A stretch of DNA of 25,116 nucleotides from a virus. The position numbers and the translations under genes were made by a program. Of the stretch, positions 13,101 to 22,434 are shown piece by piece. Every line of letters begins with the position of its first letter. Positions within the stretch are counted from its first letter, which is position 1. The stretch lies in the IMG/VR virus record IMGVR_UViG_3300025543_000193, positions 1 through 25,116 of that record. One strand, 5' to 3'. The notes below the pieces were generated by a model, which saw nothing but the letters and a program-made list of their open reading frames with translations, searched no databases and had not been told where the DNA came from.

Positions 13101-14168
13101 TTTATAAATGGAGCTGATGAAGCAGTTACAGAAATAGCTTCTCCATTTATAGATGAATCTATTTGGACTCAAGCTGCAGCAGATATAAATTTATTTCCAT
13201 TATTGCCAGGTAGAGGTGGTAGAACAAGAGATGGAAGAATTTTATATACAGAACAAACACCTATAGGTGATAGAATGTCAATTAAGTTTAGACATTTAAT
13301 GGAAGCCTTAGCTCCCTCATACAAACAATTTATAAGAATAGGTCAAGCCGCTACAGGAACACCTACTAAAACTGGAAAGACATTAGAATTAGATGATCAA
13401 ATTGCAGGTTTCATAGGGTTTAGACCTACAGAAGTTGATCCATTAAGATCAATGAGTTTTAAAATTGCTGAATATCAAACAGGTATAAGAAATTCTAGAA
13501 GAGAATTTACCGGTGGTGCCTTTGGATTATTAAGGGGTGGACCTATTAAACCCAATGATATTATTAATAGATTTTATGAATCTAATAAAGCTAGATTTAA
13601 TGTTCAAAAAGAAATGAATAAAAATATTAATGCAGCCGAAATATTAGGTGTATCAAATAATGATTTAAGAAAAGAATTTAAAGATAGACAATTATCTACT
13701 GAAAATTTTAATGCATTAAGAACTGGAAAATTTAAAGCTTATTTTCCATCTGAAGATATTAGAGCTAGATTTGCAGAAATAGCTAGAGATTTAGGCGATT
13801 ATGATGTTTTTAGAACAGTGTATCCAACACTAAAAAGAATGGAATTAGACATGAATAGATTATCTTTAAACGGTTTATATCAAAAAAATATCGAACGAAC
13901 AGGTTTTTCTGAAGGAGGTTTGGCTACATATGAACCTACTTTACAAGAAACAGATGAAGGTGGTATAGATTTAAATGATTATTTAATAGAAGAAATACAA
14001 CCAATGGCATTATCACAAACACCTATGCAAACACCTATGCCTAGCGCTGAAATTCTTCAACAGGCCCAGGCTTCAGGAATTGGACCAAATGGATTGACTC
14101 CAACTGAGAATGCTTTATTATCTGAGGAAGAGAAACAAATTAGACTAAGATCTAGAGGATTAGCATAA
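10113..14168 (+). CDS. Giant putative internal virion protein (1351 aa)
   Basis: The largest gene in the window. An excellent Shine-Dalgarno (AAAGGAG at 10100-10106) precedes the ATG. The N-terminus is acidic and hydrophobic (FVPLLPQEEDSEASWYTAGLSGIASGIIKVPEGVFSLG...), followed by helical regions and hydrophobic stretches, such as LLFPKATSQLAKTVFSIP around residue 640 and the segments near residues 905-930. The C-terminus is low complexity (MQTPMPSAEILQQAQASGIGP) after an EGGLATYEP motif. Size, location and lack of motifs resemble T7 gp16-type ejection proteins, which cross the envelope. I see no lytic transglycosylase signature of the type found in T7 gp16, so any enzymatic role is unproven. 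Confidence 0.65.
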   Translation: MAEFVPLLPQEEDSEASWYTAGLSGIASGIIKVPEGVFSLGAELIDLGFDTDTAADVEMFFDKLNPFEEIAEQKGIGKLTEALVSIGIPGTAGFKLGSKLANNYFKKKALKQAYSSGDKAVIKAAEKAFKLNKKQGYSKFAAGAMGGAAGEAFVADVEDIGTFGDMFDKGPTQLDTFSTGGGREDATRKLLNRLKFGSESLLFTPIVAAAGKSAKALATKGKELAYSNNVLERYLNKFAEAFTPEGPLTKALFGSQKVMEGFRSADMNKATELVKNIDRTINKAFPEMQKALDKTLSKEEKEVFYEKVNDLILDGDLTKFSDPKKTTEFLELLKKQGVTDETANNIITNIDEARGTFGNLIETVNNFNAPELKSILQKRIKSSIKNTYKIFEDAPILGVFGRYKPTDEIRENATKFFEKQIAASRGDINYNLDTGTYRQEARDIVDKILEDGVRAKKSSRGLADPSYIKNTLTGLGKDEKFIKNIIDDTAGPAIQVRKLLGEMKDPRYSIFNAVTELSGMARTSAMLKQMVDQNDIIQKQGGVGSFWKTAEEARAATNGTVEIIEIGGTKSKDKLSELADFKAGQIENPLIGKFTTKPIADALEKANSLTEGYFTAAVRGKEGSSAAEKGASFLYRNLLLFPKATSQLAKTVFSIPTHLRNIISAGAFASANGILFEGFKNPKLLGESFRKGWQISGVGNLKNTRFKDADFEAAYRELLELGIVNSQVQIGDLRALMKDVNFGDKIADLDSVLNPMMAKLKKFPQYLQGKYTAEDDFWKITNYFVELSRRDEAYKKANIIKTPKELKEEAADIVRNTVPNYAYVGDVVRTARLLPVGNFMSFPSEMIRTTVNIGGQAIKEMKHIPVAGERIIGTDIAPMVFIEGKGLVKNNNPMYSIGATRAAGMAFTLNAVPAMVVEGSKALYNVTEDEIQALRQFVPDWSKNSTLVPIRDEDTGKLKYIDFSHSNAYDLIGRPFRTLANEIMSATKDGDTILQGFINGADEAVTEIASPFIDESIWTQAAADINLFPLLPGRGGRTRDGRILYTEQTPIGDRMSIKFRHLMEALAPSYKQFIRIGQAATGTPTKTGKTLELDDQIAGFIGFRPTEVDPLRSMSFKIAEYQTGIRNSRREFTGGAFGLLRGGPIKPNDIINRFYESNKARFNVQKEMNKNINAAEILGVSNNDLRKEFKDRQLSTENFNALRTGKFKAYFPSEDIRARFAEIARDLGDYDVFRTVYPTLKRMELDMNRLSLNGLYQKNIERTGFSEGGLATYEPTLQETDEGGIDLNDYLIEEIQPMALSQTPMQTPMPSAEILQQAQASGIGPNGLTPTENALLSEEEKQIRLRSRGLA

Positions 14169-15343
14169 TGGCTATATATGAAACACTGTATCCACAAGGA
14201 AATTTTTTAAATATTAGAGATAATGCTCCAACACAAGCAGACTATAATATTAGAGCAACAGAAGATTTAGTTAGAAATTTACCTGGAGGATTATTAAAAG
14301 ATATAATTTCACCAGCAATGGCGGCTACTTTAAGTTTACCATATGATACCATTCAAGGTATATCAAGAGCAGATAGTTATACACCATCTGGAATAATGAA
14401 ATCAATTGCTGCAGAAAATCCTTTATCAAGTGCATATGAAAGATTTATAGGTGCATCTGCTCCTTTAGCGGAAAGAATAAATAATTTAAATTTATTTAAT
14501 TCTGCTGTTGCAGCTGAAAAACCTACGATTCCCAATGTTAGTTTAGGTACTCCACAAATTAATTTTAATACTGGAATTACAGGTGCATCTAATGCTATTC
14601 CAATGATTAATAATGTTCCAATGATTAATACCGGTGCTATAGATCAAAGGTTACAAAACACAGATTTAATTCAACAAATAATTGCTGCTAATCAAGTAGC
14701 TAATGCAAATAAATTTGGAAATACTGTAGCTCCTTTTTCTGGAAATCAAATTCCTCAAATTAATAATCAAATGCCATTTAATGATTTCTATGGTTCAGTT
14801 TATGAACCTTACAATGAAGAAAAAGATGACGAACAAGTAGATTATCTTCCAGGTCAATCTTCATTTAAAGATAAAATAAGTAATTTTGGAAGTAACGTTA
14901 TGCAAAAATCTGGTATTGGAGGTTTATTAGGTTTAATAACTGGTAATCCATTAATTGGTTTAATAGGTAAAGGTATTGGTGGTTTAGCAAATAATTTTAA
15001 TTCTAGTTTTGTAGGACCAAAAGGTTCGACTGGATATGGTAAAGATACCATTGGTGGTTTATTTGCAAGATCAAATAATTTTGCTGATTTTGTTCAAAGT
15101 ATGAGGGATAAAAAAGCTAGAGAAGATGCTGCAGCAAGAGGAGCAGCTAAAGCAAATATGGCAGAAGCTAAATCAATAACAGATAGAATATCAAAAGATA
15201 AAGTATCATATCAAGATAATTACAGAGGAGGCGGCGGAGGCGGCGGAGGCGGCGGCGGAGGCGGCGGAGGCGGATCTTCAGGAAGTAAAGGAAGCAGAGG
15301 TGAAGGTATGGGTGGTTTTGGTGGAGGAGCAGACCGTGACTAG
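14168..15343 (+). CDS. Putative virion protein with C-terminal polyglycine
   Basis: A 391-aa protein starting on TAATG. The first half includes ETLYPQGNFLNIRDNAPTQ and a low-complexity Asn/Ile-rich region with a short repeat (PMINNVPMINTG, DNA repeat ccaatgattaata at about 14600-14632). A Gly-rich hydrophobic segment (GIGGLLGLITGNPLIGLIGKGIGGL) lies around residues 252-278 and could insert into a membrane. The C-terminus has a basic helix (MRDKKAREDAAARGAAKA), then 16 consecutive glycines, then SSGSKGSRGEGMGGFGGG. It is likely to be another internal or tail component; no family name is recognised. Confidence 0.55.
   Translation: MAIYETLYPQGNFLNIRDNAPTQADYNIRATEDLVRNLPGGLLKDIISPAMAATLSLPYDTIQGISRADSYTPSGIMKSIAAENPLSSAYERFIGASAPLAERINNLNLFNSAVAAEKPTIPNVSLGTPQINFNTGITGASNAIPMINNVPMINTGAIDQRLQNTDLIQQIIAANQVANANKFGNTVAPFSGNQIPQINNQMPFNDFYGSVYEPYNEEKDDEQVDYLPGQSSFKDKISNFGSNVMQKSGIGGLLGLITGNPLIGLIGKGIGGLANNFNSSFVGPKGSTGYGKDTIGGLFARSNNFADFVQSMRDKKAREDAAARGAAKANMAEAKSITDRISKDKVSYQDNYRGGGGGGGGGGGGGGGGSSGSKGSRGEGMGGFGGGADRD
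15227..15274 (+). repeat. GGA/GGC polyglycine tract (16 codons)
   Basis: Sixteen consecutive glycine codons, all GGA or GGC, in a genome where glycine is mostly GGT or GGA. The tract contains five GGAGG cores and is far more GC-rich than its surroundings. It is a simple-sequence repeat prone to slippage, and lies 61 bases before the next gene's start. Confidence 0.9.
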
Positions 15344-18938: not shown

Positions 18939-20585
18939 ATGCAAGAGTTTATAAAAAATTTTACAGGTTTAGAACGTAATTACGGTTATTGTAATATTAG
19001 TAATGGTTATAAAGATCCTGATACAGGAAAGATAAGATTTAAAAATGGTGACTATGGGTGGTCAGGTAAACCTATAACTCAATTTGATTACAAACAACAT
19101 TTAGATGGGACAAAATCAATAGGAATACAACCCTGTAATGATAGTGATTTAGCAAGGTTTGGTGCAATAGATATAGATCCAAAAATATATAAAAATTTAG
19201 ATGTAAAATATTATCTAGATATAATTCAAGAAAAACAATTACCATTAATACCAGTTAAATCTAAAAGTGGTGGGCTTCATTTATATTTATTTACAAAAGA
19301 ATTAGTAAGAGCAAAAGTAATAAAAGATTTTTTAGAAGACGTATTATTTTTATTTAAACTACCAATCAATACAGAAATATTTCCTAAACAAACTAAATTA
19401 GGAAGTGATACAAATGGAAATAAAGTAAACGGTAATTTTATAAATCTTCCATATTTTGGTAAAAAAGAAAGAGTTGCATTAGATCCATCGGGTAAAGAAA
19501 TACCTTTTGATGTGTTTCTACAATGTGTTGAATTAAATAAAGTAGATTCAAATCAACTAAAAGAATTATCGGATAATCTTATTCAGAAAGCATTAACCGG
19601 AGGTGCAGAGGAATTTAAAGATGGTCCACCATGTTTGGAAATTTTATCAAAAAATAAAATGACAGATGGTCGTGATAGATTTTTATATAATTACATGGTC
19701 TTTGCTAAGAAAAAATATTCAGATGATTGGAAAAATAAAGTTCTACAAGCAGGTAGAAATTATTTTGAGTTTAATCAAACCTGGACAGATGATCACATTA
19801 AAATGAAAATAAAAAATTGGGAGAAGCAGGACAAAGGTCATACTTGTAGTGATGAATTACTTTCACCTGTTTGTGTTAAATCAGAATGTGTAAAAAGAAA
19901 ATTTGGAATTATATCAGATAAGAAAATAGATTGGCCATTGATGACTAATCTAATCAAAGTAGATTTTAAACCAGATCCTGAATATTATCTTACGGTAGAA
20001 AATAAAAAAGGTGAATCAGTTTCAGTTCATGCAAAAGATGTAAATAAATTAAAAGATCAAAAAGAATTAAGAGGTTTAGTTATGGCTCAAGCGGATATAT
20101 TTCCACCTCCTATTAAAGCAATGGACTTTCATGCAATGATAAATGCTTTGTTAGATACACAAGATACAGTGCAGCCGGCTCCAGGGACCAGACCAATGGA
20201 GATATTAAAGAAATTATTAAGGGAACATATTAACGGACCTCAGGCTACAACGCACAATTCTTTTTTAAGTGGTAACGTATTGAAAGATGAAACTTATGCA
20301 TACTTTGTTTATGATGATTTCTATACTTTCTTAAAAGAAAACGAATGGAAGAAAGATGCATCTAGAACTTCTTACATGATAGAAAAAATGTTTGAAAATG
20401 AAAAAGATCATTTACCAAAACCAGAGTTTGGTAAGAAGAAAAGATTTCCAGGTAAAAATAAAAAAACAGATAAACCAAATCCAGGTGTTAATGGATGTGC
20501 ATTTATACCTTTATATCTATTTAAAGAAGAAGACATGGAAGTAGAAGAGATTATAGAAATAGAAAATGAGGATGATATTGTATAA
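18939..20585 (+). CDS. Archaeo-eukaryotic-type primase (AEP superfamily)
   Basis: A 548-aa protein. The N-terminal half has the AEP catalytic pattern: FGAIDIDP with acidic Asp78 and Asp80, then KSKSGGLHLYLF with His114 in the S-x-H-type position, then a GNFINLPYF segment (about 173) as the third conserved element. This matches the TOTE/AEP-like primases found in phages and conflict systems. A Cys-rich region near residues 299-316 (HTCSDELLSPVCVKSECVKRKFG) probably binds zinc. The C-terminal half is helical with no helicase motif, so it is not a bifunctional T7 gp4-type enzyme. It would make primers for the polymerase at 22920. The start has AAAGGG in its upstream leader. Confidence 0.8.
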   Translation: MQEFIKNFTGLERNYGYCNISNGYKDPDTGKIRFKNGDYGWSGKPITQFDYKQHLDGTKSIGIQPCNDSDLARFGAIDIDPKIYKNLDVKYYLDIIQEKQLPLIPVKSKSGGLHLYLFTKELVRAKVIKDFLEDVLFLFKLPINTEIFPKQTKLGSDTNGNKVNGNFINLPYFGKKERVALDPSGKEIPFDVFLQCVELNKVDSNQLKELSDNLIQKALTGGAEEFKDGPPCLEILSKNKMTDGRDRFLYNYMVFAKKKYSDDWKNKVLQAGRNYFEFNQTWTDDHIKMKIKNWEKQDKGHTCSDELLSPVCVKSECVKRKFGIISDKKIDWPLMTNLIKVDFKPDPEYYLTVENKKGESVSVHAKDVNKLKDQKELRGLVMAQADIFPPPIKAMDFHAMINALLDTQDTVQPAPGTRPMEILKKLLREHINGPQATTHNSFLSGNVLKDETYAYFVYDDFYTFLKENEWKKDASRTSYMIEKMFENEKDHLPKPEFGKKKRFPGKNKKTDKPNPGVNGCAFIPLYLFKEEDMEVEEIIEIENEDDIV

Positions 20586-22021
20586 TGATTTATAAATACT
20601 ACGGTCCTCCAGGTACAGGTAAAACATATAAGCTTATCAGTAGAGCTAAAGCATATGTTAGAATGGGTGTACCGTTAGATAAAATTGCATACTTTGCTTT
20701 TACTAAAAAAGCTGCAGAAGAAGCTAGAGAAAGAATGCCAGCAGAAGACAAAGATTTATATTATTTTAGGACTATTCATTCATTTGCTTTTGATCAATTA
20801 GATTTAAATACTAAAAAAGTAATGCAAGGTAGTGATTATGAAAAGATAGGTAAGAAATTAAATTTAAGAGTTAAGTATTATGATAAATATAATAAAGAAG
20901 AAATATTTTATTTAAATAGTGATAGCCCATATTTTCAAATGATAGGGAAAGCAATTAATAGAGATGTAACTATTAGAGAAGAGTATGATAGAAATGAACA
21001 TAACTCTAAAGAAATTAAATGGCATATATTAAAAAATATAAATGATAATTTAAAAAATTATAAGACTGTTAAAAAGAAATTAGATTTTAATGATATGATC
21101 AATCAATTATTATTAAAAGAAGATTTACCTAGATTTAAAGCAATCTTCATAGATGAAGCTCAAGATTTATCTCCATTACAATGGAAACTATTTGATAAAT
21201 TAAAACAATATACAGATGATATTTATTTAGCAGGTGATGATGATCAGGCTATCTTTGCTTGGGCTGGAGCAGATGTAGATAGATTTATATCTGAAAAAGC
21301 AGATAAAGAAAAAGTATTGAAATATTCAAAAAGAATATCAAGAGCAGTTCAGGAACAATCAATCATACCTCTAACTAATATAATTGGTTTAAGAAAACTA
21401 AAAAAATATTATCCAAGAGACTACGAAGGTGAGTGTCTTAAAATAAATAACCTAGATCAAATAGATCTAACAGAGGGAAAATGGTTAATATTAACTAGAA
21501 CTATTTCTAGATTAATAAGGATGACAAAAGAATTAAGAAAAAGAAATTTATATTATTATACTAATAAAGGTAAAAGTTTTGTAGTTAGAATATATAATGC
21601 ATCAATTAATTATAATTCATGGTGTAGAGGAATTAAATTAGATGAAAAAGAAATAAAAGATGTAGAAGAATATACTGGTCTTAAACAAAATAAATGGGAC
21701 AACACAATAGATTGGTTTGATGCTTTTAAAAAAGCAGATTTATCTGAGAAAGAATATATTAAAAATATGATAGATAATGGGGAAGACCTAGATGATAGGG
21801 CACGTATCAAAGTATCTACTATTCATGCAGCTAAAGGTGGAGAAGAAGATAGTGTAATTCTTTGTTTAGACATTGGAGATAAAATTAAAAAAGCAATTAA
21901 GAAGAGTCAAGCAAAGCATGATGAAGAACATAGAGTTTGGTATGTTGGGGGAACACGTGCAAGAAATAATTTATATAAATTAAAAGCAAGAATAAAAAGA
22001 AATGAATATAAACATATTTAA
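20585..22021 (+). CDS. UvrD/Dda-like SF1 DNA helicase
   Basis: A 478-aa protein starting on TAATG. SF1 motifs in order: Walker A GPPGTGKT (7-14), motif Ia AFTKKAAEEARERM, DEAQ (190-193, Walker B), motif III AGDDDQAIFAWAGAD from Ala216, motif V TIHAAKGGEEDSVIL (about 411) and motif VI VWYVGGTRARNNLY (about 452). It lacks the long 2B insertion of E. coli UvrD and is near the size of T4 Dda. It probably unwinds DNA at phage forks or displaces proteins, and works with the primase encoded directly upstream. Confidence 0.9.
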   Translation: MIYKYYGPPGTGKTYKLISRAKAYVRMGVPLDKIAYFAFTKKAAEEARERMPAEDKDLYYFRTIHSFAFDQLDLNTKKVMQGSDYEKIGKKLNLRVKYYDKYNKEEIFYLNSDSPYFQMIGKAINRDVTIREEYDRNEHNSKEIKWHILKNINDNLKNYKTVKKKLDFNDMINQLLLKEDLPRFKAIFIDEAQDLSPLQWKLFDKLKQYTDDIYLAGDDDQAIFAWAGADVDRFISEKADKEKVLKYSKRISRAVQEQSIIPLTNIIGLRKLKKYYPRDYEGECLKINNLDQIDLTEGKWLILTRTISRLIRMTKELRKRNLYYYTNKGKSFVVRIYNASINYNSWCRGIKLDEKEIKDVEEYTGLKQNKWDNTIDWFDAFKKADLSEKEYIKNMIDNGEDLDDRARIKVSTIHAAKGGEEDSVILCLDIGDKIKKAIKKSQAKHDEEHRVWYVGGTRARNNLYKLKARIKRNEYKHI

Positions 22022-22024
22022 GAA

Positions 22025-22046
22025 TTTACATACTAACCTATGTAAA
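22025..22046 (+). terminator. 8-bp hairpin after the SF1 helicase gene
   Basis: Arms TTTACATA (22025-22032) and TATGTAAA (22039-22046) with a six-base loop CTAACC, directly after the stop codon. It is AT-rich and has no following U-run, so a terminator function is weak; it may instead protect the mRNA end or be part of the structured region that follows. Confidence 0.4.
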
Positions 22047-22131
22047 CCGATCGGGAGCGAGAAAACCCTTTTTGGTGGGTGGCAGCATCAAGCTCTAACG
22101 GGCGAAGTTGGTTCGATTTCTCCAACTCCCT
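22047..22131 (+). ncRNA. GC-rich, foldable intergenic segment (candidate ncRNA or leader)
   Basis: Of these 85 bases 46 are G or C (54%), far above the surrounding coding DNA, and no reading frame explains it. Possible stems: CCGATCGG palindrome (22047-22054); GGGAG (22053-22057) with CTCCC (22126-22130), closing the whole element; ACCC (22065-22068) with GGGT (22077-22080); AGTTGG (22106-22111) with CCAACT (22122-22127), whose loop starts TTCGA like a tRNA T-loop. The last stem and the closing stem share one or two bases, so they would compete or stack. It is not a standard tRNA: the T-arm cannot form the 5-bp/7-nt geometry and no D-arm is visible. It precedes the DUF3310 gene and could be a free small RNA, a 5' leader element or a processing site. 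Confidence 0.4.
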
Positions 22132-22185
22132 ATTCATTCATGGTCGTTAAACTAACAACTGTCACATTAAACTGAAAGGAAAACT

Positions 22186-22434
22186 ATGACACACAAAGAT
22201 GACTTGGAAAATGCATTTCCACAAGATAAACAAATTGGAGGATCTCATTATAAAGATTTTCCCATTCAACCTTATGAATTTATTTCAAAAAATAACTTAT
22301 CATTTTTTCAAGGTAACGTTGTTAAATACGTTTGTAGATACTTGAATAAAAATGGAATACAAGATATAGAAAAGATAATTCATTACTGTGAATTAGAAAT
22401 TAAAAAGATGAAAGACATGAAGAGGAAAAAATGA
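22186..22434 (+). CDS. DUF3310 protein
   Basis: An 82-aa protein, with the family core QIGGSHYKDFPIQPYEFISKNNLSFFQGNVVKYVCRYLNKNG, then DIEKIIHYCELEI. This is the DUF3310 family, found in many phages and sometimes annotated as a nucleotide kinase, a name without clear support. The start is preceded by AAAGGA at good spacing. It is the first gene after the GC-rich intergenic segment. Function unknown; a DNA-metabolism role is inferred from neighbours. Confidence 0.85.
   Translation: MTHKDDLENAFPQDKQIGGSHYKDFPIQPYEFISKNNLSFFQGNVVKYVCRYLNKNGIQDIEKIIHYCELEIKKMKDMKRKK

Follow-up and report, generated by a model that had tools for sequence, protein, structure and literature searches.

A conserved structured RNA of about 120 nucleotides was identified directly behind a helicase gene of an uncultured marine phage. 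It represents a clearly supported RNA family outside Rfam, which is present in many uncultured marine phage contigs and is folded into several interlocking pseudoknots. By comparison of the homologous sequences the fold, the functional strand, the occurrence as one copy per contig searched and the variability of the gene context were established, and that the multi-pseudoknot fold itself is correct we consider practically certain. The original prediction of a functional structured RNA at this site is thereby supported by conservation and covariation, with corrected boundaries and stems. The proposal that the RNA derives from operon mRNA and acts as a discrete molecule is of a more tentative kind and is discussed below.

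Position of the element and collection of homologs

The window, i.e., the whole stretch of DNA that was analysed, is a linear contig of 25,116 bases from an IMG/VR virus record with 31.9% G+C overall. The RNA core (22047-22167, plus strand, as modelled by R1) occupies most of the gap between a gene encoding a UvrD/Rep-type helicase (20585-22021, plus strand; Pfam UvrD-helicase, E=3e-29) and a DUF3310 gene (22186-22434, plus strand; Pfam DUF3310, E=8e-10). This gap had been described as 85 bases long; its true length is 164 bases (22022-22185). The high G+C content noted for the segment 22047-22131 within AT-rich DNA was confirmed, with 54.1% compared to the 31.9% of the contig. This value is reached by 84 of the 25,032 segments of 85 bases, all except two of which fall in 15182-15263. 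The latter region, the sole G+C peak of equal height, is the poly-glycine-coding end of a 391-aa ORF (14168-15343). The folding energy of the single sequence was not significant (z = -0.61 for the 85-mer, z = -1.0 for 147 nt). The case for a structure is based on conservation and covariation, and neither the G+C content nor the energy carries it. A protein-coding reading was rejected: no Pfam family was matched by the 57-aa ORF at 22002-22175, which runs across the element, and the lengths of the homologous elements differ by non-multiples of three, which counts against this ORF. A promoter and terminator scan detected neither a sigma-70-like promoter nor an intrinsic terminator beside the window copy.

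The first relatives were gathered via the DUF3310 protein and thus independently of the RNA; about 28 of these loci contained a similar segment with 68-100% identity. A 19-nt pattern derived from the 3' strand yielded many further matches, nearly all of which, among those listed, were true homologs (the match in L119 was due to chance). A covariance model was built on 62 sequences and scores the window copy with 108.3 bits. Many unrelated contigs drawn by a further search pattern were filtered out by this model. Homologs are numerous in IMG/VR: at least 85 distinct copies were found, and 85 were aligned. One full match of the covariance model was obtained per contig, including long contigs which were searched whole, and the element is single-copy wherever tested. 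The comparison of homologous regions in related phages, which had been suggested originally, demonstrated that the segment is kept.

Fold and covariation

The conserved fold consists of the five helices A, F, B, P3 and D, whose strands are arranged from 5' to 3' in the order A5, F5, B5 (in the loop of F), F3, P3 hairpin, D5, A3 (in the loop of D), D3 (with a UUA bulge) and B3. Helices F and B combine into an H-type pseudoknot, and helix A crosses both B and D, which is an intricate architecture for an RNA of about 120 nt. Helix A is composed of A1 (GGGAG, 22053-22057, with CTCCC, 22126-22130) and A2 (GAGAAA, 22059-22064, with TTTCTC, 22117-22122); all strands are given on the plus strand. The 3' strand of A2 lies in the apical loop of D, and its position 22117 can alternatively pair in helix D. 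The 5' strand of F (22072-22077) pairs with 22086-22091 and thereby encloses a loop of 8 nt, which contains the 5' strand of helix B (GTGGCAG, 22079-22085); the latter pairs with CTGTCAC at 22159-22165. The P3 hairpin (GCTC-TAAC-GGGC, 22092-22103) is followed by the 5' strand of helix D (GTTGGTTCGAT, 22107-22117), which pairs with 22150-22156 and 22143-22146, so that the 3' strand (22143-22156) bulges out UUA at 22147-22149. Conserved unpaired bases are concentrated at the core, namely in the UUA bulge, an AA linker and a 5' GA. The bulge is conserved to 98/95/100%, its columns being partly fixed by the search pattern. An additional hairpin of 8 bp, P0 (22025-22046; 22025-22032 with 22039-22046), is seen in the fold 5' of the core. 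It is limited to some clades, comprising that of the window and the relatives L006, L009, L055, L189 and L203, and its stems vary among relatives yet stay complementary (TTTATATGC/GCATATAAA, TTACAC/GTGTAA).

The four stems drawn by the original prediction could be retained only in part. The closing stem GGGAG/CTCCC is real and corresponds to helix A1, and GCTC/GGGC (22092-22095 with 22100-22103) corresponds to P3; the four-stem picture, however, is not the conserved fold, because the real partner strands are mostly found beyond the 3' end quoted for the element (22143-22165). The sequence TTCGA, which had been compared with a tRNA T-loop, is part of D5 and is paired downstream, and hence the likeness is not structural. 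A further candidate helix between UAACG of the P3 loop and a downstream CGUUA was dropped, as it is absent from copies with UUCG (L400, L377, L430) or another loop on P3; its appearance is produced by the UAAC loop together with the UUA bulge.

Covariation in related phages, the lack of which had been named as counter-evidence beforehand, gives very strong support to the fold. In a MAFFT alignment, which was not fitted to the structure, 98.7% of the cells in the 25 pairs of F, B, P3 and D are paired and 13 pairs are changed on both sides. None of 500 shuffles reached any of the five measures for these helices, and sliding the partners lowers the pairing to 27-56%. A further shuffle test had the same outcome; its alignment was fitted to part of the structure, and it is therefore supporting only. 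Since the sequences are related, the cell counts do not represent independent events; several pairs, though, occur as four to six standard pair types, which requires repeated compensated change. RNAalifold recovered B, P3 and D unaided, and F, P3, D and B rank top in the mutual information over all columns of the 85-sequence alignment. The strongest signals of the alignment are the pairs 30-41 and 27-44 of helix F, which are found with five and six pair types, respectively, and are both 100% paired. The signals for the B pairs and for the outer F pair 27-44 are not circular, because these pairs are absent from the model. Helix B displays a C-G/U-A exchange in 25 sequences and compensated changes in L067 (ATAGCAG/CTGCTAT) and L290 (ATGGTGG/CCACCAT), and all four pairs of P3 are altered on both sides somewhere. 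The invariance of D3 and B3 in the columns of the search pattern is not evidence, because the pattern selected these columns as constant.

Helix A was tested apart. All eight pairs of A1 and A2 are formed with the own partner strand in 63 of 63 homologs, compared to a mean of 40 of 63 (sd 2.8, maximum 47) with swapped partners; the latter also score well because the register is partly free, and it is the difference that counts. Covariation within A2 comprises GAGA/TCTC, GCGA/TCGC, GTGA/TCAC, GAAG/CTTC and GTAT/ATAC as well as UAAUGC/GCGUUA and AUAAUGA/UCAUUAU from divergent copies. Among 2,350 pair cells 243 G.U pairs were counted versus 6 A.C pairs. Such an asymmetry is expected under selection on the sense RNA and unexpected for DNA or an antisense RNA, which identifies the sense RNA as the functional molecule.

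Gene context and distribution

Comparison of the flanking genes revealed that about 62 of the 85 aligned copies are located after a UvrD helicase gene (two of them at contig ends, where the helicase was recognised by its C-terminal residues), 11 after an SNF2 helicase gene and 12 elsewhere. The last group includes some copies behind genes for RecB-like nucleases (PDDEXK_1 slightly under the Pfam cut-off). The upstream genes are mutually unrelated (UvrD helicase, SNF2 helicase, RecB-like exonuclease and others), and the element nearly always lies 3-25 nt past the stop codon of a same-strand gene, in operons as well as at operon ends. In most copies the next start codon follows at 7-25 nt. All eight SNF2-context copies with readable downstream sequence are followed by a gene on the opposite strand, so that no downstream gene could be controlled there. 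These varied neighbors indicate that neither DUF3310 nor any other single gene is an obligate partner of the element, an independence which speaks for an activity residing in the RNA. A role as 5' leader of the DUF3310 gene, which had been considered originally, is disfavored, since many copies follow other genes and some have no same-strand gene next to them.

In L003, L004, L023, L074, L100 and L109 the element and DUF3310 are separated by inserted small genes of different kinds, so that genes appear to be gained and lost at this junction. Relatives lacking the element (L012, L016, L031, L034 and L038) have, in its place behind the helicase gene, a short ORF that encodes a hydrophobic stretch and overlaps or abuts the helicase stop codon.

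The phages that carry the element are marine and uncultured; their nearest isolate is the related Pelagibacter phage HTVC027P (PolA 75% and helicase 59% identical). Judged by this phage kinship only, the host is probably a marine bacterium near Pelagibacter. BLAST searches of phage isolates with the window and three divergent copies gave no homolog (best E of the window query 2 or worse), and HTVC027P, 023Pt_psg01 and HTVC023P, which were searched whole, contained chance-level matches only. Because the element is absent from complete relatives, it is not essential for this type of phage. None of 397 Pelagibacterales genomes matched the covariance model under filters stricter than those of the other searches. 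Within the GTDB collection the 19-nt pattern gave 35 matches, of which one belongs to a full-length element (L225) and the others are due to chance. L225 (LSSG01000033.1) is binned as a Thermoplasmatales archaeon MAG and carries a full element with 114.2 bits; it looks like a wrongly binned phage contig.

Possible functions and comparison with known RNAs

In the explanation we favor, this compact RNA, present in one copy per genome, would be transcribed in sense direction within the mRNA of replication genes, directly past a stop codon. Cleavage or trimming of the transcript may then release it, and the resulting discrete folded RNA would act in trans, e.g., by binding a host or phage protein, and not by controlling one neighboring gene. 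As a whole, the statement that a new phage RNA family arises from operon mRNA and acts as a discrete RNA falls, on the available sequences, just short of an even chance. The fold, the sense-strand signal, the single full match per contig, the SNF2-context copies without a controllable gene and the conserved unpaired core bases argue for this reading; the lack of a promoter or terminator at the window copy, which leaves a separate transcript unproven, the short distance to the following start codon in most copies, which would suit a role in cis as well, and the complete relatives that lack the element argue against it. It is a serious possibility, the contrary being the more probable, that these abundant marine phages carry a compact multi-pseudoknot RNA of a new class, intrinsically active either in self-cleavage or in the capture of a host protein. 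The captured protein may be a nuclease, a ribosome factor or a defence protein.

Positioned always behind a same-strand gene, within operons and at their ends, and containing crossing helices, the element could also serve in cis as a block on the mRNA which stops exonucleases or guides endonuclease cutting. By analogy to exonuclease-resistant RNAs it would stabilise the upstream message or part it from the downstream one. We regard this as possible but unlikely, as the upstream genes are unrelated, a general stabiliser could be expected several times per genome, and the conserved unpaired bases of the core suggest a more specific task. These same bases, combined with a compact nested pseudoknot and the lack of a fixed gene partner, are typical of small ribozymes, and the F/B arrangement is reminiscent of the pistol ribozyme. 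A self-cleaving ribozyme of a new class, which would cleave the polycistronic mRNA in the knot or close by, nevertheless seems improbable, given that no ribozyme family of Rfam 15 matched and that conservation names no cleavage site.

Much the same reserve applies to the idea that the element regulates the following gene, which is DUF3310 in the window, as a leader or riboswitch; the 3' strand of helix B would then lie beside the ribosome-binding site. Copies in the UvrD context usually have a ribosome-binding site with ATG no more than 70 nt away, and the gene that follows is often DUF3310; on the other hand the next gene varies, it is missing from the same strand in the SNF2 context, and L003, L004, L074, L100 and L109 contain other small genes before DUF3310. 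The absence of a consistent same-strand downstream target counts against a riboswitch or gene-specific leader. A tRNA remnant, a tRNA mimic or a tRNA-derived attachment site is suggested by two words in tRNA order (see below) and is very improbable, since no tRNA was predicted, covariation pairs both words with downstream strands and the Pelagibacterales genomes lack matches to the model. Least credible of all is an element at the DNA level (origin, packaging site or protein site) or a mere chance peak of G+C, for which the locally high G+C content in an AT-rich contig would speak: the compensatory changes with their excess of G.U over A.C are those of a sense RNA, and the failure of all shuffles to reach the observed covariation refutes chance.

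For the comparison with known RNA classes, 4,227 families of Rfam 15 were searched with the window and 15 loci including divergent copies. No family matched at the gathering threshold, and below it only chance matches (Afu_455, ZFAT-AS1_3, astro_FSE and freshwater-2) occurred. ARAGORN detected no tRNA or tmRNA cloverleaf in the window or in 90 elements. The original impression that the segment fits no standard tRNA or RNA motif was thus correct, and no description of the element was found in an open-access literature library. As far as Rfam 15 matching and this literature reach, the RNA family is new, a fold already known from unrelated sequences being conceivable. The novelty lies in the family and its fold, as phage non-coding RNAs as such are already known; with the covariation-backed model and the homolog list, the activity of the RNA is open to direct test.

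The weak match of one homolog to freshwater-2 RNA (RF02980; 17.9 bits, E about 1) rests on a ribosome-binding site, AAGGAGAAAA-ATG, is far under the gathering score of 49.9 and is attributed to chance. Two short words, AGUGGUAG and GGUUCG, are common to the element and tRNA and are ordered alike in both. They resemble D-loop and T-arm words (GUGGYAG, 22079-22085, and GGUUCG, 22110-22115), which may be a coincidence or a trace of origin; in contrast to tRNA, the element forms no cloverleaf and both words are paired to downstream strands. An HDV-like ribozyme, which needs a nested double pseudoknot with the 3' strand of P1 right after the P3 hairpin, was ruled out, because in the element P3 is followed first by the 5' strand of D and only then by the 3' strand of A, and the respective Rfam models were negative. 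Viral exonuclease-resistant RNAs (xrRNA) are likewise compact viral pseudoknots downstream of a coding sequence; the element has no Rfam match to them and its carriers are DNA phages. In the pistol self-cleaving ribozyme a hairpin loop pairs with a 3' strand, with another helix in between. Helices F and B recall this hairpin-loop pseudoknot, whereas the element, which has no Rfam match here either, is distinguished from pistol by the extra hairpin P3 and by helix A, which crosses B and D.
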